From the NCBI RefSeq assembly GCF_019278565.1, contig NZ_CP058988.1, positions 2,666,001-2,730,000 of the forward strand: DNA of 64,000 nt, written 5' to 3'. Positions 5,816 to 23,882 of the stretch are shown here, in pieces. Below the pieces are notes generated by a model. The model did not search any database. It was not told the origin of the DNA and saw nothing but the letters and a program-made list of their open reading frames with translations. Within the stretch, counting starts at the first letter, position 1; every line of letters starts with the position of its first letter. The translations under genes and the position numbers were made by a program. The stretch is from Cellulophaga sp. HaHa_2_95. Lineage in GTDB: Bacteria > Bacteroidota > Bacteroidia > Flavobacteriales > Flavobacteriaceae.

Positions 5816-5984
5816 TTCTTCTTAAAATTTAACAGTTTCAAAGGTAATTCTAAAATCATATAAACCCAAACTTACAGTGGTCTTAATCTAAAATTTACCT
5901 TGTAGGAAATTACATAATAAATATTTAACATTTATCTGATATAATGTTGATTTTCAATTGATGATAACTTTATAGTCTCTGCTT

Positions 5985-5992
5985 TAATTTTG
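5985..5992 (+). promoter_or_regulatory. Promoter -7 element (TAATTTTG) for the LpxH-like gene
   Basis: It matches the Bacteroidota TAnnTTTG element. With start near 5998-6000 the mRNA leader would be only about 8-10 nt before the TTG start, so the transcript would be almost leaderless. A TTG lies 24 bp upstream, slightly further than the ideal -33 spacing. Confidence 0.5.
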
Positions 5993-6007
5993 TAAAAACG
6001 AGAAAAT

Positions 6008-6880
6008 TTGAAAAAGAGAAAAATAGATGTAGTTGTAATATCAGATGTGCATTTGGGCACCTATGGTTGTCATGCCGATGAATTAATTTCATATCTGAGC
6101 AGTATTCAGCCCAAGAAGCTCATACTTAATGGAGATATCATTGACATCTGGCAGTTTAGTAAGCGATATTTTCCACCTTCTCATTTAAAGGTGCTAAAGA
6201 AAATTATAGGCATGGCTTCTAACGGTGTTGAAGTTACGTATATTACTGGAAATCACGACGAAATGCTTCGTAAGTTTAGCGATACTTCAATAGGGTACGT
6301 GAGTATTGTAGATAAGCTAGTATTAGATTTGAATGGAAAAAAAACTTGGTTTTTTCACGGAGATGTTTTTGACGCTTCGATACAAAATGCAAAATGGTTA
6401 GCGAAGCTTGGAGGTTACGGTTATGATTTTCTAATATTGATTAACCGGTTCATGAATTGGTGTTTAACACGTATGGGTAGAGAAAAATATTCGCTATCTA
6501 AACGAATTAAGAATAGCGTAAAAGGCGCTATCAAGTATGTCAACGATTTTGAGAAAACAGCGGCAGATTTAGCTATAGAGAATGGGTATGATTATGTAGT
6601 ATGCGGACATATTCACCAGCCTAAAAAAGAGCAGTATGAGAATAAAAATGGAGTATGTACATACTTAAACTCTGGAGATTGGGTAGAAAACTTAACAGCA
6701 CTAGAGTATTCTTTTAAAAGATGGAAAGTCTACCACTATAACAATGATAAACTTTCTCCTTTTTATGCTGATGAAGAATTGAAAGAATTAGACATCAATG
6801 AATTAATTGCTTCTATTACTTTTAATCAAAACAAGAAAAAAGATTCTTCTTCGTCTTTAGAAGAAAGCTCCTTAGAGTAG
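6008..6880 (+). CDS. LpxH-like metallophosphoesterase (UDP-2,3-diacylglucosamine diphosphatase family)
   Basis: 290 aa. It has the full calcineurin-like metal-binding set: SDVHLGTYG (block I), GDIIDIW (II), GNHDE (III), FHGDVFD (IV) and CGHIHQP (V). In E. coli LpxH, such a protein cleaves UDP-2,3-diacylglucosamine to lipid X in lipid A synthesis, at the inner face of the membrane. Bacteroidota carry LpxH-like proteins of this longer type. The start is a TTG at 6008; no better ATG precedes the conserved block I. The acidic, Ser-rich C-terminus overlaps the convergent YdiJ-like gene by 9 bp. Confidence 0.85.
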   Translation: MKKRKIDVVVISDVHLGTYGCHADELISYLSSIQPKKLILNGDIIDIWQFSKRYFPPSHLKVLKKIIGMASNGVEVTYITGNHDEMLRKFSDTSIGYVSIVDKLVLDLNGKKTWFFHGDVFDASIQNAKWLAKLGGYGYDFLILINRFMNWCLTRMGREKYSLSKRIKNSVKGAIKYVNDFEKTAADLAIENGYDYVVCGHIHQPKKEQYENKNGVCTYLNSGDWVENLTALEYSFKRWKVYHYNNDKLSPFYADEELKELDINELIASITFNQNKKKDSSSSLEESSLE

Positions 6881-9781
6881 TGCTTCCTTTAAAATTGTAA
6901 TAGGATGCTTGGCTTGCCTTTTGGTGCCATCATAGATCTGATGACGACAACTTGTCCCATTGGCAGAAATAATGGTGTCTTCTGGAGACTTACGCACTGC
7001 GGGAAATAGTTTTAACTCCCCTATCTGCATGCTTACTTCATAATGTTCTTTTTCGTAGCCAAAAGATCCTGCCATTCCGCAACACCCTGACGTTATAATA
7101 GATACTTCGTAATTCTTTGGAAGGTTTAGAATGTCAAACGTAACTTTTTGGTTTGATAAAGCCTTTTGGTGGCAATGTCCGTGAATCTTAACCTTTTTAG
7201 TTTCAGCAGTAAATACCTCAGAATTTAAAACTCCAGCTGTAATCTCATTCGCTAGAAACTCTTCAATTAGATAACAGTTCGTTGCTATTTTTGCAATGGT
7301 TTCTTTATCTGTTGTAAAACGTCTATACTCATCTCTAAAGGTTAGAATAGCAGAAGGCTCCAATCCAATTACCGGGATATTCTTATCTGCAAATACCTTT
7401 AATTTCTCAATGTTGTCTAGCGCTAGTTTTTTAGCCTGCTTTAAAAAGCCTTTGGAGATATAGGTTCTGCCACTTTCTGCATAAAATAATTCTACATCAT
7501 AGCCTAACTTTGTTAATACCTCTATAGCGTCTTTTCCTAGTTCTACATCTAAGTAATTGGTGAATTCATCAATGTATAAGGCAATACTTTTATTGTTTTT
7601 AGTATTCTTATTATCAAATATTTGAAGGTGCTTATCGAAATTAAAACTATAAACCTTAGGCATAGTTCGTTCTTTAGCAACCCCAGCACTGCTTTTTAAA
7701 AGTCCGCCAAAGAAACTAGAATCATATATCGCATTAGTTAAGCCAGAAACTTTACTTCCTAATTTATTTAATTTCGTATTGTAAGCAAATAATTTACCTC
7801 GTAGAGGGTATCCGTTTGCTTCTTGATATTGGTATAAAAATTCGGTTTTTAGGGTAGCTACATCTACGTTACTTGGACATTCACTTGCACAAGCTTTACA
7901 GCTTAAGCATAGATCAAATACTTCTTTTAATTCTTTCTGATTAAACTTGTTTGGTGCCTCAGAAGTAGTTAGAAACTCTCTTAAGGCATTTGCTCTACCT
8001 CGTGTGGTATCTTTTTCATTTTTTGTGGCGTGATAACTTGGGCACATACCACCTGCACTTTGGTGAGTTTTTCTGCAATCTCCACTTCCATTACACTTTT
8101 CTGCCGCTTTTAAGATTCCTTCACTATCAGAAAAATCTAAGAGTGTCTTTATCTCTGGCTCTTTTCTATCGATCGTATAGCGTAACGATTCATCCATAGC
8201 AAATGCATCTACAATTTTACCAGGATTAAAAATATTTGTAGGGTCAAAGTATGATTTTACGCGCTTTAATAGTTGGTAGTTTTTATCTCCGATCATTAAA
8301 GGGATAAATTCTGCTCTTACAATTCCATCTCCATGTTCTCCACTAAAAGAGCCTTTATATTTTTTAGTCAGTTTAGCTACATCTGTCGTGATGGCTCTAA
8401 AAAGGTGAACATCATCAGATTTTTTTAGATTAAGCATAGGTCTTAAGTGCAATTCTCCTGCACCAGCGTGTGCATAGTATACGGCACTCTGCTTGTAACC
8501 GGCCATGATTTGTGTAAATTCTCCAATAAAATCTTTTAAATCTTCAACGGCAACGGCCGTATCTTCAATACACGCAACCGCTTTTTTATCTCCTACTATA
8601 TTTCCTAAAAGTCCCAATCCGGCTTTGCGCAATTCGGCAGCCATTTTTCCTTCTTGGGCATTTAGAATGGAATTGGAATAACTTAATCCAGAAGCTTCTA
8701 TAGTCGCTAAAAGTGCCTCAATTTGCTTTTGTAGATCTTCTTCAGTATCAGATTTTACCTCAAGCATTAAAAGAGCGGCAGGATCACCTGCAACAAAGAA
8801 TCTATTTTTTAATTGGTCTCTATTGTTTTTAGTGCAGTCAAGTATCACCTTGTCCATCATTTCGCATGTATGCAAATTGTGTTTCATGGTAGGAGCCACG
8901 TCCGTAAGGCAATCTTCCAGAGTGCGGTAGTGCGGTACTACCATTGCGGAAAGTTTTGGTGGAATTGGCATTAATTGTAATGTAATTTCTGTAGTAAATG
9001 CTAAGGTACCCTCACTCCCACTCAATAATTCGCAGACATTAATTAAATCTTTTTTACCACCGAAAACCTCACTTTTAAGTAATTCGTCTATAGCGTACCC
9101 CGTATTTCTTCTGTGAATTTGTGGTTTAGGAAATTCTCTTATAATTTCTTCCTGAATTTCTTTATTTGAAAGTTCTTTATGTAAACTTCTGTAAATAGAC
9201 CCTTCAAAGGAATCTAACTTGGTTTTGGCTAAAAATTCATCTGTAGTGAGCGCCTTAAACTCCGCCTCTTCTCCGTTAGATAAAATAGTTTTTAAGCTAG
9301 ACGTATACTCCCTAGTTATTCCGTAACGTATAGATGTAGTTCCTGAAGAGTTGTTCCCAACCATTCCGCCAATCATACAACGGTTTGCTGTGGACGTATT
9401 GGGGCCGAAAAATAAGCCATATGGCTCTAAGTAGGTGTTTAATTCATCACGTATCACTCCTGGTTGTACTGTGACTTGCATTTTTTCTTTGTCAACAGAA
9501 ATGATTTTCGTAAAATGTACAGAAACATCTACTACAATTCCATCACCTACACATTGCCCTGCTAGAGAAGTACCTGCCGTTCTAGGTATTAATCCGATAT
9601 TGTGTTCTTTAGCAAATAAAATTAATTTTTGAAGGTCAGAAGTGCTTTTCGGGAAAGCAACAGCTAAAGGTGTTTTTCTATAAACCGATGCGTCAGTGGC
9701 ATATAGGGCTTTTGATAGTTTGTCTATTCTTAATTCTCCTTCTAAACGCTCTTTGAGGTCGTGTAATGATGCAGTTTCCAA
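6872..9781 (-). CDS. FAD-linked oxidase / 4Fe-4S / CCG-domain fusion dehydrogenase (YdiJ/GlcD-GlcF type)
   Basis: 969 aa. N-terminal FAD_binding_4 domain (PRTAGTSLAGQCVG around residue 60; NRCMIGGMVGNNSSG near 135), then an FAD-oxidase C domain (HAGAGELHLRP; SGEHGDGIVR), a ferredoxin-type Cys cluster CLSCKACASECPSNVDV (~630), and C-terminal Cys-rich CCG-type segments (HGHCHQKAL; SGCCGMAGSFGYE). The order matches E. coli YdiJ, shown to oxidise D-2-hydroxyglutarate; related fusions oxidise D-lactate or glycolate. The protein joins in one chain what GlcD and GlcF do as subunits, passing electrons from a 2-hydroxyacid to quinone. The start codon at 9781 is TTG. The 3' end overlaps the LpxH-like gene convergently. 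Confidence 0.88.
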   Translation of the reverse strand: METASLHDLKERLEGELRIDKLSKALYATDASVYRKTPLAVAFPKSTSDLQKLILFAKEHNIGLIPRTAGTSLAGQCVGDGIVVDVSVHFTKIISVDKEKMQVTVQPGVIRDELNTYLEPYGLFFGPNTSTANRCMIGGMVGNNSSGTTSIRYGITREYTSSLKTILSNGEEAEFKALTTDEFLAKTKLDSFEGSIYRSLHKELSNKEIQEEIIREFPKPQIHRRNTGYAIDELLKSEVFGGKKDLINVCELLSGSEGTLAFTTEITLQLMPIPPKLSAMVVPHYRTLEDCLTDVAPTMKHNLHTCEMMDKVILDCTKNNRDQLKNRFFVAGDPAALLMLEVKSDTEEDLQKQIEALLATIEASGLSYSNSILNAQEGKMAAELRKAGLGLLGNIVGDKKAVACIEDTAVAVEDLKDFIGEFTQIMAGYKQSAVYYAHAGAGELHLRPMLNLKKSDDVHLFRAITTDVAKLTKKYKGSFSGEHGDGIVRAEFIPLMIGDKNYQLLKRVKSYFDPTNIFNPGKIVDAFAMDESLRYTIDRKEPEIKTLLDFSDSEGILKAAEKCNGSGDCRKTHQSAGGMCPSYHATKNEKDTTRGRANALREFLTTSEAPNKFNQKELKEVFDLCLSCKACASECPSNVDVATLKTEFLYQYQEANGYPLRGKLFAYNTKLNKLGSKVSGLTNAIYDSSFFGGLLKSSAGVAKERTMPKVYSFNFDKHLQIFDNKNTKNNKSIALYIDEFTNYLDVELGKDAIEVLTKLGYDVELFYAESGRTYISKGFLKQAKKLALDNIEKLKVFADKNIPVIGLEPSAILTFRDEYRRFTTDKETIAKIATNCYLIEEFLANEITAGVLNSEVFTAETKKVKIHGHCHQKALSNQKVTFDILNLPKNYEVSIITSGCCGMAGSFGYEKEHYEVSMQIGELKLFPAVRKSPEDTIISANGTSCRHQIYDGTKRQAKHPITILKEALL

Positions 9782-20123: not shown

Positions 20124-20882
20124 CTAGTTCTGAACCCGTAACTGGCTTTTTAGTTCTTCCATAGATTCTTGTAATTGTCTTAATAGGCCTGTTTCTGTGG
20201 TTGCATCTACACCAAAAGTAATCTTACTATTAACCTGCCAAATTTCTTGAATTTGAAAAGGTTTGATTTCATAAGGCGGATAGTTTTCGTTTAAAGAAAC
20301 TAAAGTAACATTATTCGAGTTTGGTTTTTTAATTACTTTTTTCACCAAAACGGCATCTTGAAGTACTACTACATAAATTTTGTTAGGCGTAACATCATCA
20401 ATATGTTCAATAGCTTTTGCGAGTACCCACTCCCCTGGTCTTAAATTTGGCAACATACTGTCTCCTTCTACTTGAAAACCTCTGTAGGTAGCATTTCTAA
20501 ATTCAGGTATAGGCAAATCAAATGCTGGTAATTGTTGATACCAACTTGTATCAGCAATATTTTGTGGATAACCGGCTGCTGCTTTAGCATTCACTAAAAC
20601 CATATTTTCGCGATCTGCAGAATCTACAGTAACTACTTTAGGAATTACACTGGTATGAGAAGTTTCTATATATTTAGAATCACTTTCTCCAAACAACCAC
20701 AACGGATTAATTTTAAATTGCTTTAAAAGCTCTGTAACGACTTTACCAGAAAGCTTGGTTCTTCCGCGTTCTATATCTGCCGTAGTGTTAGAAACACCAA
20801 TCAAAGCCGCAAATTCAGCTTGCGTGAAACCTAAGTCTCTCCTAATTTCTATAAAGCGTTTCAGGGTAATTTCGTTTTCCAT
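20124..20882 (-). CDS. LexA/CI-like repressor: XRE helix-turn-helix plus S24 self-cleavage domain
   Basis: 252 aa from the ATG at 20880-20882. Residues ~6-60 are a Cro/CI-type HTH (LGFTQAEFAALIGVSNTT, ERGRTKLS). The C-terminal half is an S24/LexA-like peptidase: possible cleavage site Ala103-Gly104 in AKAAAGYPQ, nucleophile Ser142 in VEGDSMLPNL, general-base Lys181 in AVLVKKVIKK. The Ala-Gly to Ser distance (39) is close to LexA. The last ~30 residues may form a coiled coil (LLRQLQESMEELKSQL). The gene is divergent from a radical-SAM repair-type gene, and its own -33 TTG lies inside operator dyad O1, so autorepression is likely. By analogy with LexA and CI it should be inactivated by RecA-stimulated self-cleavage on DNA damage; this is inference. 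Confidence 0.88.
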   Translation of the reverse strand: MENEITLKRFIEIRRDLGFTQAEFAALIGVSNTTADIERGRTKLSGKVVTELLKQFKINPLWLFGESDSKYIETSHTSVIPKVVTVDSADRENMVLVNAKAAAGYPQNIADTSWYQQLPAFDLPIPEFRNATYRGFQVEGDSMLPNLRPGEWVLAKAIEHIDDVTPNKIYVVVLQDAVLVKKVIKKPNSNNVTLVSLNENYPPYEIKPFQIQEIWQVNSKITFGVDATTETGLLRQLQESMEELKSQLRVQN

Positions 20883-20900
20883 AATCCTTTCGTAATAAGC

Positions 20901-20929
20901 CAAATATACGCAATTTGGATATAATCCAA
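20901..20929 (-). promoter_or_regulatory. Promoter of the S24 repressor gene (-33 TTG, 18 bp, -7 TATATTTG)
   Basis: On the minus strand, TTG (plus coordinates 20929-20927) is followed after 18 bp by TATATTTG (20908-20901). The ATG at 20882 follows 18 bp later. The -33 TTG is part of dyad O1. Confidence 0.65.
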
Positions 20930-20930
20930 A
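20914..20930. promoter_or_regulatory. Operator-like dyad O1
   Basis: TTTGGAT-ATA-ATCCAAA: perfect 7-bp arms with a 3-bp spacer. It overlaps the -33 element of the repressor's own promoter. Confidence 0.65.
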
Positions 20931-20936
20931 ATATTT

Positions 20937-20953
20937 TATGGAAAAATTCCATA
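20937..20953. promoter_or_regulatory. Operator-like dyad O2
   Basis: TATGGAA-AAA-TTCCATA: perfect 7-bp arms with a 3-bp spacer, the same architecture as O1 (GGA...TCC core). It covers the -33 region (TTC at 20947-20949) of the radical-SAM promoter. Confidence 0.65.
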
Positions 20954-20977
20954 TTTAGGAATATTTCCATAATTTTG
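20947..20977 (+). promoter_or_regulatory. Promoter of the radical-SAM operon (-33-like TTC, 20 bp, -7 TAATTTTG)
   Basis: TAATTTTG at 20970-20977 matches TAnnTTTG. The expected -33 position carries TTC in place of TTG, a weak promoter by this criterion. A start near 20983 would leave a leader of about 15 nt before the ATG at 20998. Dyads O2 and O3 occupy the promoter, so bound repressor would block RNA polymerase. Confidence 0.55.
20955..20971. promoter_or_regulatory. Operator-like dyad O3
   Basis: TTAGGAA-TAT-TTCCATA: the GGAA/TTCC core is symmetric and two outer positions mismatch. It lies between the -33 and -7 elements of the radical-SAM promoter, touching the -7 box. A further half-site TTTGGA follows at 20974-20979. 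Confidence 0.6.
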
Positions 20978-20997
20978 GAGTAATTACAATTTGAACT

Positions 20998-22260
20998 ATG
21001 TCTTTCGAAAGAATAAAAGAAAAATTAAATATTTTGGCCGATGCGGCAAAGTACGATGTCTCGTGCTCTAGTAGTGGAAGTACTAGGGGGAATAAAAATA
21101 AAGGTCTCGGTGATAGTACGGGTATGGGTATTTGTCATACCTATACGGAAGATGGGCGTTGTGTGTCGCTCTTGAAGATATTGCTCACTAATCATTGCAT
21201 TTTTGATTGTGCCTATTGTGTGACCAGAAAAAGCAATGATATAAAAAGAGCCGCTTTTAAAATTCAAGAAGCCGTAGATCTTACTATTAATTTTTACCGC
21301 CGTAATTATATAGAGGGACTTTTTTTGAGCTCAGGAATTTTTAAAAGTCCTGATTATACCATGGAGCGTTTGGTGGCCGTGGCTAAGAAATTAAGATTAG
21401 AAGAGAATTTTAACGGTTATATTCATCTTAAATCTATTCCTGGAGCAAGTGATGAATTAATGTATGAAGCTGGCTTATATGCAGACCGATTATCAGTGAA
21501 TATAGAGGTGCCAACCATTTCTGGTTTAAAATTATTAGCTCCAGATAAAAAGCACGAAGACTTTACGAAGCCCATGTTAAAAGTCAAGAACGAAATTCTG
21601 ATTTACAAAGCGGAAAAAAAGATTACTAAAAGCACGCCAATATATGCTCCTGCGGGCCAAAGTACACAAATGATTATAGGTGCCACAGGAGAATCAGACA
21701 AAGATATTATGTACTCGGCAACACATTATTACAAAAACTACAACATGAAACGGGTGTATTATTCAGGCTATGTACCCGTCGCAGATGATAGTAGGCTCCC
21801 GGCTATAGGTTCACAAGTACCTATGCTGCGCGAAAATAGATTGTATCAGACAGATTGGTTGCTTCGTTTTTATGGCTTTGGTGTTAAAGAAATTTTGAAT
21901 GATACGCATCCAAATTTAGATATAGATGTGGATCCTAAATTAAGTTGGGCTTTGCGTAATTTGTCACAGTTTCCTATAGATGTAAATACTGCAGAACCTA
22001 GAATGCTAGCAAGAATTCCCGGTTTAGGAATGAATTCTGTATATAAAATTATTAATGCTAGAAAATATAGAAAACTAACATTTGACCATCTTAAGAAAAT
22101 TGGAGTAGCCTTAAACCGGGCTAAATATTTTATGGTATGTAGTGGTAATGATTGTGCTCATAAGGATTTGCAAGCCATTCAAATAAAAGGATTAATTCTT
22201 CAAAATTCTCAGGGAAAGTTCAGGAATAATTATAGCTCACAATTATCCTTATTCAATTAG
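20998..22260 (+). CDS. Putative DNA modification/repair radical SAM protein (rSAM_link_UDG type) with helix-hairpin-helix
   Basis: 420 aa. The radical-SAM cluster motif CX3CX2C is at C67, C71, C74 (NHCIFDCAYCVTRK). The end of the core carries a helix-hairpin-helix DNA-binding region (around residues 325-380: VNTAEPRMLARIPGLGMNSV, then FDHLKKIGVALNRAKYF). This matches the family TIGR03916, named for its linkage with a uracil-DNA-glycosylase-like partner; its reaction is not established. The partner-family gene (TIGR03915/DUF4130) follows at 22535. The protein binds [4Fe-4S] and S-adenosylmethionine and probably acts on DNA. Expression is likely repressed by the divergent S24 regulator. Confidence 0.9.
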   Translation: MSFERIKEKLNILADAAKYDVSCSSSGSTRGNKNKGLGDSTGMGICHTYTEDGRCVSLLKILLTNHCIFDCAYCVTRKSNDIKRAAFKIQEAVDLTINFYRRNYIEGLFLSSGIFKSPDYTMERLVAVAKKLRLEENFNGYIHLKSIPGASDELMYEAGLYADRLSVNIEVPTISGLKLLAPDKKHEDFTKPMLKVKNEILIYKAEKKITKSTPIYAPAGQSTQMIIGATGESDKDIMYSATHYYKNYNMKRVYYSGYVPVADDSRLPAIGSQVPMLRENRLYQTDWLLRFYGFGVKEILNDTHPNLDIDVDPKLSWALRNLSQFPIDVNTAEPRMLARIPGLGMNSVYKIINARKYRKLTFDHLKKIGVALNRAKYFMVCSGNDCAHKDLQAIQIKGLILQNSQGKFRNNYSSQLSLFN

Positions 22261-22266
22261 TTCAAA

Positions 22267-22497
22267 ATGAGCGCAACCAAACCAACCATAGCAAACCTCG
22301 GAAGTATGAAACAATCATGGTCTTCTCTAGAAAAAAGACGAAATACAATTCTAAATATTGGATATGGCATGATTGCATTTAAAAGCAGCCTAAAAAGGGC
22401 TCTTAGAAAGAAGTTTAATAGCTTGTTTTTTCGGAGAAATGCACCAGAAAATAGCATCGATGATGCAGTGATAAAAGAAAGGGATAGTCCCGTTTAG
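22267..22497 (+). CDS. Possible small basic protein inside the radical-SAM operon
   Basis: 76 codons from an ATG 6 bp after the radical-SAM stop to TAG at 22497, 37 bp before the DUF4130 gene. The product is basic (KRALRKKF, FFRRN), with no recognised domain. A frame of 66 codons also exists on the other strand, so coding by chance is possible. Its favour is the operon-like spacing on both sides and an otherwise unexplained 274-bp gap. It may be a poorly conserved accessory protein. Confidence 0.42.
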   Translation: MSATKPTIANLGSMKQSWSSLEKRRNTILNIGYGMIAFKSSLKRALRKKFNSLFFRRNAPENSIDDAVIKERDSPV

Positions 22498-22534
22498 TAG
22501 GTTCCAAGTCAGAATATAAAATAAATTATATAGT

Positions 22535-23311
22535 ATGAACGAAGCAAAAATTTTAGTTTACGATGGAAGTTTTAACGGATACTTAACAGCTGTTTTTCAA
22601 GCTTTTGAGCAGAAGTTAACTATTGCAGATATTCAGAAAGAGGAAAGCGCACAAAGTGGTTTATTTTCTGATGCAGAATTAGTTTATACGGATGTTTTAA
22701 AATCAAAGCGGGTTTGGAATGGCATTCAGAAAAAGAATAATACAGCCATTAAGAATATATACTTTGCTTTTCTTAGTGAAACAAAAGGAATAGAGCTACT
22801 ACTCTATCGGTATATTCAAAAATTGTTTTCAGAAACAGAACTCTTGCATCTTAATTTTTCTGATGATATTGTTTTAAAAATAAGTCAACTTGCTAAATCT
22901 GTAGGAAGAGAAAAACATCGCATGGAAGCATTCGTCCGATTTCAATTAACAAAAGATGCTATCTATTTTTCTAATATAGAGCCAGATTTTGATGTGCTAC
23001 CCTTAATTTCTAAACATTTTAAAAGCAGGTACGCAGACCAGCAATGGATTATTTATGATGTAAAACGCAAATACGGCATCTATTATAATTTAGACACCGT
23101 TGAGTTCATTACCTTAGATATGGCAGAAATTCATAACAATAAAACGAAAAAAAGTAGTGTTTTTACAGACGAAGAATATGAGTTTCAGGATTTATGGAAC
23201 AACTATTTTAAAAGTACGAATATTGCTTCAAGAGTTAATTTAAAGTTGCATACACAGCATGTGCCAAAGCGCTACTGGAAATATTTGAGTGAGAAAAAAG
23301 CAGTGTCCTAG
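22535..23311 (+). CDS. TIGR03915-family putative DNA repair protein (DUF4130)
   Basis: 258 aa. The start ILVYDGSFNGYLTAVF and the central VGREKHRMEAFVRFQ are the hallmarks of the DUF4130/TIGR03915 family, which accompanies the TIGR03916 radical-SAM protein in many bacteria and is sometimes fused to a uracil-DNA-glycosylase domain. Here no UDG domain is fused: the protein ends after the DUF4130 part (RYWKYLSEK). The molecular role is unknown; a partner in DNA repair or modification is inferred. It is the last gene of the operon that begins at 20998. Confidence 0.9.
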   Translation: MNEAKILVYDGSFNGYLTAVFQAFEQKLTIADIQKEESAQSGLFSDAELVYTDVLKSKRVWNGIQKKNNTAIKNIYFAFLSETKGIELLLYRYIQKLFSETELLHLNFSDDIVLKISQLAKSVGREKHRMEAFVRFQLTKDAIYFSNIEPDFDVLPLISKHFKSRYADQQWIIYDVKRKYGIYYNLDTVEFITLDMAEIHNNKTKKSSVFTDEEYEFQDLWNNYFKSTNIASRVNLKLHTQHVPKRYWKYLSEKKAVS

Positions 23312-23354: not shown

Positions 23355-23882
23355 TTATTTAGATTTATCGCCCACAAAATGGTCATTTTGATTTTTAAAC
23401 AGTACATTAAATGTGGTTAAGCTTCCATATATTCTAGTAATGTATTGTTGTAGATCAATTTTTTCTTGATCATCGAGATTCTTGCTTGCATTTATTTTTT
23501 GTTCCATTACCCTAATACGGTCACGAACCATGACTATTTTATGAAAAAAGGTGTCAATAGGTACAATTTTATCACTCAAATTAGAATCACCCGGTTGCAT
23601 CACAATCGTTCCGCCACGCCATTTATCAGCAATAGGGGTAACAGAGCTAGCATCACTCCATTTTCTTAAAATTGAAATCAGAGATTGTTCCACTTCAGAA
23701 AAACTAATGGTATCCACATCATCTTCTAAAGCTTCAATTACCTCAAAATCAGCAGTTATGTCTATTGTTTCTAGTCCGTTTTCCATGAAAGTAACCCAGT
23801 AATGTTTTGAAGTTACATTGGTAACAGCTCCAAGTCCATATTCCGCATGTTTTATTCTTGAACCGATTCCTAATATTTGCAT
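23355..23882 (-). CDS. Unknown protein with UvrD-Tudor/CarD-like N-terminal domain
   Basis: 175 aa. Residues 1-50 (IGSRIKHAEYGLGAVTNVTS, then YWVTFMENGLETI) resemble the small beta-barrel at the C-terminus of UvrD/PcrA; compare INHTRFGRGTVVKI in this window's own helicase at 40406-42736. In PcrA/UvrD this domain contacts RNA polymerase. Residues ~60-100 are a mixed segment. The last ~60 are a likely helical/coiled-coil part (MVRDRIRVMEQKINASKNLD). It lies between the DUF4130 gene and uvrA, both repair genes, on the opposite strand. A role linking repair to transcription is inference only. Confidence 0.7.
   Translation of the reverse strand: MQILGIGSRIKHAEYGLGAVTNVTSKHYWVTFMENGLETIDITADFEVIEALEDDVDTISFSEVEQSLISILRKWSDASSVTPIADKWRGGTIVMQPGDSNLSDKIVPIDTFFHKIVMVRDRIRVMEQKINASKNLDDQEKIDLQQYITRIYGSLTTFNVLFKNQNDHFVGDKSK

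Follow-up and report, generated by a model that had tools for sequence, protein, structure and literature searches.

Bacteroidetes carry S24 repressors with a CI-like helix-turn-helix (HTH) domain, which have been described as non-canonical LexA proteins (PMC8565304, NAR 2021). According to the parts of that paper dealing with operators, one group, found primarily in Flavobacteriaceae, binds the motif GGA-N5-TCC. Binding was demonstrated by electrophoretic mobility shift assay and site-directed mutation for Salegentibacter agarivorans, a species in which mitomycin C induced the repressor and other target genes, as measured by reverse transcription quantitative PCR. The regulon predicted in the same parts for this group includes dinB, umuDC, COG1533 (SplB), the repressor itself (COG2932), and a two-gene COG1573-COG4277 operon. 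In the passages of an older work on DUF4130 (PMC3765255, 2013), this domain was linked to SplB-like radical SAM proteins and uracil-DNA glycosylases, and viewed as a predicted mutagenesis-related enzyme. Here we analyze a locus of Cellulophaga sp. HaHa_2_95, located in a stretch of 64,000 nucleotides of contig NZ_CP058988.1 (hereafter the window), in which the gene of an HTH and S24 repressor, on the minus strand, is divergent from the genes of a TIGR03916 radical SAM protein and a TIGR03915/DUF4130 protein. The repressor is very probably the non-canonical LexA of this genome, of the GGA-N5-TCC type, and would govern itself, the radical SAM-DUF4130 pair, umuDC, dinB and an SplB-like gene, with derepression presumably triggered by RecA.

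The repressor and its neighbours

The repressor gene (20124..20882, minus strand) encodes a protein of 252 residues. In profile searches the protein matched both the S24 domain (PF00717, 49.6 bits, cut-off 23.3) and an HTH domain (PF01381 HTH_3, 32.1 bits, cut-off 23), and gave no match at E<=1 to PF01726, the winged-helix LexA_DNA_bind domain that marks canonical LexA. The putative cleavage bond (A103-G104) and the catalytic dyad (S142, K181) are invariant in 27/27 aligned sequences, the window's own included, the most distant of which is 53% identical to the window repressor. A repressor 58% identical to it is divergent from the pair in a Mesonia-titled record (L112). ATG at 20882 is the likeliest start, and the residue numbers used in the original prediction, which was made from the sequence alone, match it. 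The mechanical list of open reading frames instead begins the gene at TTG 20903, hence the intergenic boundary at 20904 set in that prediction.

The radical SAM gene (20998..22260, plus strand) and the DUF4130 gene (22535..23311, plus strand) encode proteins that score 661.1 bits with TIGR03916 (cut-off 343.5) and 274.9 bits with TIGR03915 (cut-off 112.25), respectively. Both the repressor, with the residues listed above, and its divergent neighbours had been proposed in the original prediction, and the profile scores and the invariance of the residues agree with it. Only two PF00717 matches were found in this genome, the window repressor and UmuD. RecA is encoded once.

Operators between the divergent genes

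Three dyads lie between the repressor and radical SAM genes. Operator 1 (TTTGGA-N5-TCCAAA, 20914..20930) and operator 2 (TATGGA-N5-TCCATA, 20937..20953) have perfect 7-nt arms; operator 3 (TTAGGA-N5-TCCATA, 20955..20971) is an imperfect dyad. A degenerate fourth site (TTTGGA-N5-TACAAT, 20974..20990), overlapping the radical SAM promoter, has counterparts in several relatives. The -7-like promoter consensus of these bacteria, which we take to be TAnnTTTG, fits TATATTTG (20901..20908, minus strand, read from 20908 downwards) as the box of the repressor gene, and TAATTTTG (20970..20977, plus strand) as that of the radical SAM gene. The dyads are set between or over the two boxes.

The intergenic dyads exceed chance, as the orthologous upstream regions (-260 to +10) of 23 records with a repressor of the window's type (type A, as called by script) contain on average 2.30 sites versus 0.007 in dinucleotide shuffles, and a strict pattern of the operator occurs at just 8 places in the 4.54 Mb of the genome. 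In three type A records (L104, L107 and L115) the script found no operator; on reading the sequence, GGA-N5-TCC is present in all three. In the Aquimarina-titled L104 and L107, a small reading frame separates the operators from the radical SAM gene; that of L107 matches DUF559 (PF04480, 53.7 bits, cut-off 20.6).

Candidate targets in the genome and in the genus

Of the 8 distinct places found by searching the whole genome with the strict pattern, three are the window dyads, two precede umuDC and dinB (one each), and the remaining three are intragenic. Matches per strand were 6 and 6, versus 1 and 4 with the reversed control. Because the window dyads and the umuD site had served to build the pattern, only the dinB site and the three intragenic sites are independent evidence. 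The umuD site, first spotted by eye, is a near copy of operator 3, and ends 10 bp before umuD. When the pattern is loosened, dinB gains a second site, and two tandem sites (C1:241002/241021) appear at the beginning of a gene for a radical SAM protein that matches PF04055 and was judged by eye to be SplB-like. A further site, ~35 nt ahead of the gene of a UvrD-type helicase (G000:C1:2864388), is treated as no more than a lead. Searching the genome for TATGGA-N5-TCCATA with two mismatches allowed was discarded, as the yield (271 per strand versus 384 in the control) was swamped by chance; the exact site in the window was absent from the hits listed, but was recovered with the stricter search.

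The same motif was looked for at the corresponding genes of congeners. GGA-N5-TCC is found upstream of dinB2 in 10 of the 11 genus genomes having this gene, upstream of the 122-aa-type umuD in all six congeners examined, and at the SplB-like gene in 9/10 genus loci, own included, the exception being G009. Twenty additional regions were fetched. Sixteen contain a type A repressor, each with GGA-N5-TCC upstream (16/16; the start used for L071 is not an ATG). The L074 region encodes a different XRE-S24 protein, which has no GGA-N5-TCC upstream, L078 an S24 protein with a LexA domain, and no GDSM protein was found by the script in L076 and L079.

The original prediction viewed the repressor as dedicated to the pair, and the locus as a compact switch independent of the general SOS regulon. 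The divergent layout would suit such a switch, as would the operator cluster, which is densest at the window locus; moreover, in five congeners and in genome G031 this place is held by a different S24 repressor (type B, see below) with its own dyad, which may be local. The window genome has similar operators upstream of umuDC, dinB and the SplB-like gene, and, apart from the repressor, PF00717 is matched by UmuD only. For these reasons the repressor does not look dedicated, and an independent switch is very improbable. The independence had been argued from the uvrA promoter. The dyad is indeed missing there, no GGA-N5-TCC being found in the uvrA upstream region, but the missing site does not exclude a general SOS regulon, since other operator sites lie elsewhere in the genome.

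Conservation of the divergent layout

The neighbourhood survey suggested with the original prediction covered 100 relatives, 29 of which, own included, have TIGR03916. An S24 protein bearing the GDSM motif is divergent from the TIGR03916 gene in 21 of the 29, so the arrangement recurs in relatives as anticipated; 15 of these repressors are type A, and 6 are type B (200-201 aa, VACGLP motif). Of the 18 genus genomes, 10 have type A and 5 have type B divergent from the pair, G008 has a radical SAM gene without adjacent S24, and G006 and G007 no TIGR03916 match.

A wider sample was made by the best 80 of 583 records with a radical SAM gene. An adjacent, divergent S24 gene of type A was found in 24 records (23 called by script, and L121, assigned here by its KAAAGY motif although labelled 'other' by the script), and of type B in 2. 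In the 54 records with no adjacent S24, the region upstream of the radical SAM gene contains CTAA-N5-TTAG, the operator of another published group, in 23 cases, and GGA-N5-TCC in 4; the reversed CTAA pattern, used as a control, occurs in 0/54. In the surveyed records, the pair thus appears to be often, not always, under SOS-type operators. The text pattern used for DUF4130 missed 5/80 records; DUF4130-like frames adjoin the radical SAM gene in 4 of these 5, and in L147 such a frame lies ~2.5 kb downstream.

Upstream of the radical SAM gene, five Chryseobacterium-titled records (L143, L147, L149, L161 and L162) share, by eye, an element resembling TTGA-N6-TCAA, which may be a further operator that has diverged. 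L109, titled as a metagenome-assembled genome of Saccharospirillaceae, contains a Flavobacteriaceae-like version of the locus, probably a binning error.

Type B repressors and variant loci

Type B repressors feature a Cys-Gly site and the dyad ATATCAT-N3-ATGAnAT, and no significant similarity was detected by BLASTP between one of them and the window repressor. The pattern of the dyad, derived from the type B loci themselves, is found beside the repressor in the five type B congeners, each of which has 0 to 2 further occurrences, and once or twice also in some congeners devoid of type B (G000, G001, G008, G016, G017). Three genomes with type B beside the pair (G002, G003, G005) also encode type A elsewhere, with GGA-N5-TCC upstream, and two others (G011, G015) have elsewhere an S24 frame of type A length. 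The GGA-N5-TCC motif is retained upstream of dinB in G003 and of the SplB-like gene in G002. The pair may thus be under a local repressor in these congeners, unlike in the window.

In five genomes (G035, G043, G047, G049 and G054; records L067, L068, L069, L071 and L072) DUF4130 is the sole partner gene divergent from a type A S24 gene, and no TIGR03916 match was found. The DUF4130 proteins of these genomes are more divergent (62 to 143 bits with PF13566), and in G047 and G049 the match ends before the 146-position profile does, at 103 and 111, respectively.

Other S24 genes were observed in different surroundings. The S24 regulator of L074 (G025) is divergent from a gene that by eye is DnaE-like, followed by dinB. 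In L077 (G027), at a distance of a few kb from the radical SAM gene, a type A S24 gene is divergent from an SRAP gene (PF02586), and dinB lies shortly past the latter. The S24 protein of L078 (G053, 5914-7575) has a LexA_DNA_bind domain (PF01726, 31.1 bits) and adjoins a SMODS (CD-NTase-like) gene; it contrasts with the statement, in the parts of PMC8565304 on LexA distribution, that no LexA homologs were found in Bacteroidetes.

The radical SAM-DUF4130 pair

The radical SAM protein matches PF04055 (30.4 bits), and the cysteines of its CX3CX2C motif (C67, C71, C74) are invariant in 12/12 aligned proteins. Its C-terminal part is HHH-like, the score with PF12836 HHH_3 (23.3 bits) being below the cut-off of 27. 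The term TIGR03916 was not found in the literature searched, where DUF4130 and COG4277 each appeared in a single paper. We take COG4277 to be the TIGR03916 family, and the published COG1573-COG4277 operon is almost certainly the radical SAM-DUF4130 pair.

The DUF4130 protein scores 181.6 bits with PF13566. In the profile search only DUF4130/TIGR03915 exceeded the cut-off, and no uracil-DNA glycosylase domain did; TIGR03914 was matched nowhere in the genome. The predicted structure suggests that residues 1-213 may adopt a DHH/RecJ-Cdc45-like fold, in which the metal-binding Asp motif is degenerate. Sequence searches of PDB gave no useful relative for the repressor, the radical SAM or the DUF4130 protein.

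A 76-aa reading frame (22267-22497) lies between the two genes, and has no Pfam match at E<=0.1. A 175-aa protein (23355-23882) adjoins uvrA, and gives a match to PcrA_UvrD_tudor below threshold only; it recurs near the pair, or near the type A repressor, in several relatives.

Discussion

The layout of the genes, the residues of the repressor, the operators, the regulon sites and their conservation are all read from sequence, and fit a plain scheme. Dimers of the repressor, bound to the three to four tandem operators, would cover both divergent promoters, and repress the repressor gene as well as the pair; like operators elsewhere would keep umuDC, dinB and the SplB-like radical SAM gene repressed too. 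Upon DNA damage, RecA assembled on single strands would stimulate cleavage at Ala103-Gly104, catalysed by Ser142 and Lys181, and the genes would be derepressed, then shut off again via autoregulation. The pair would thus be induced by damage, and may repair or process a replication-blocking lesion. One could imagine instead a CI-like repressor of the same genes, which uses the S24 domain for dimerization only and answers to a cue that is not the RecA filament, such as a partner protein; this is hardly likely, as the cleavage bond and the Ser-Lys dyad are invariant, the targets are classic SOS genes, and the regulon of a relative is induced by mitomycin C in the experiments described in PMC8565304.

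Several points weigh against a LexA-type repressor with the regulon outlined above. The experimental support comes, by analogy, from the relative S. agarivorans. The model of the full-length repressor is weak (predicted local distance difference test, pLDDT, 61.5). The looser pattern is scarcely enriched genome-wide (48 sites versus 42 in the control), which makes the extent of the regulon uncertain, and lone weak sites were not counted as targets. GGA-N5-TCC is missing upstream of recA of this genome, upstream of dinB2 of G005, and upstream of the other class of umuC in the five congeners having it (0/5). Of the 29 relatives with TIGR03916, eight lack an adjacent S24, and in these eight neither published motif was found within 300 bp. 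The same holds for 27 of the 54 records without adjacent S24, which have neither motif, and the 23 records with CTAA-N5-TTAG are not 23 independent cases, because they are largely related to one another.

That the window repressor belongs to the published LexA-like family, and that the pair is among several likely targets, remains, all considered, well founded. Of the damage-inducible switch first proposed, control by damage is likely, autoregulation is suggested by the operators, and the operators link the repressor to the pair; the dedicated nature did not stand, nor did the claim that such control had not been described, as PMC8565304 (2021) covers the repressor class, the GGA-N5-TCC operator and mitomycin C induction of the repressor and other targets, and lists COG1573-COG4277 in the predicted regulon. 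Type B repressors beside the pair, S24-DUF4130 loci without TIGR03916, and the predicted DHH/RecJ-like nature of DUF4130 are possibly new.

A broader proposal is put forward tentatively, and the odds are rather against it. Unrelated S24 repressors, exchangeable with one another, would keep the pair under SOS control. In addition to those of the two published motifs, a third kind (200 aa, Cys-Gly site, ATATCAT-N3-ATGAnAT) would have displaced the resident one in part of the genus, forming a local switch beside a still-present global one, and the pair, made by a DNA-binding radical SAM protein and a degenerate DHH/RecJ-Cdc45-like protein, would process lesions at stalled forks. Be that as it may, the probable assignment to an SOS regulon provides an expected inducer for the pair, either mitomycin C or UV, and makes its function testable.

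Comparison with known systems

In predicted structures, the C-terminal S24 fold of the window repressor resembles those of E. coli LexA and phage lambda CI, and its HTH that of P22 c2 and other lambda-type domains, although the model is weak. Unlike phage CI and P22 c2, the repressor shows no sign of a prophage role at the window locus; unlike E. coli LexA, which has a winged HTH, it gave no match to PF01726. In the passages of PMC3765255 on DUF4130 the S24 repressor is not treated, and the terms 'DHH' and 'RecJ' are absent from its main text. The CTAA-N5-TTAG group of PMC8565304, widespread in the phylum, is in the relevant parts also predicted to control COG1573-COG4277, but has a different operator, and is not of the window's type.

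The GGA-N5-TCC group is the closest. As described in the corresponding parts of PMC8565304, its members share with the window repressor the CI-type HTH and S24 domains, the Ala-Gly site, the Ser-Lys dyad, and GGA-N5-TCC in their own promoter. The description differs from the window in two respects: in the window the repressor and radical SAM genes are physical neighbours, transcribed divergently, and the partner labelled there as a uracil-DNA glycosylase (COG1573) is a DUF4130 protein, so that the label given to the operon in 2021 may not fit genomes such as the present one. Assignment of the window repressor to this group, whose experimentally tested member is S. agarivorans WP_075324850.1, is well supported by its features, because every sequence feature tested agrees: the HTH and S24 domains, the Ala-Gly and Ser-Lys residues, the operator in its own promoter, and the operators at dinB, umuDC and the SplB-like gene.

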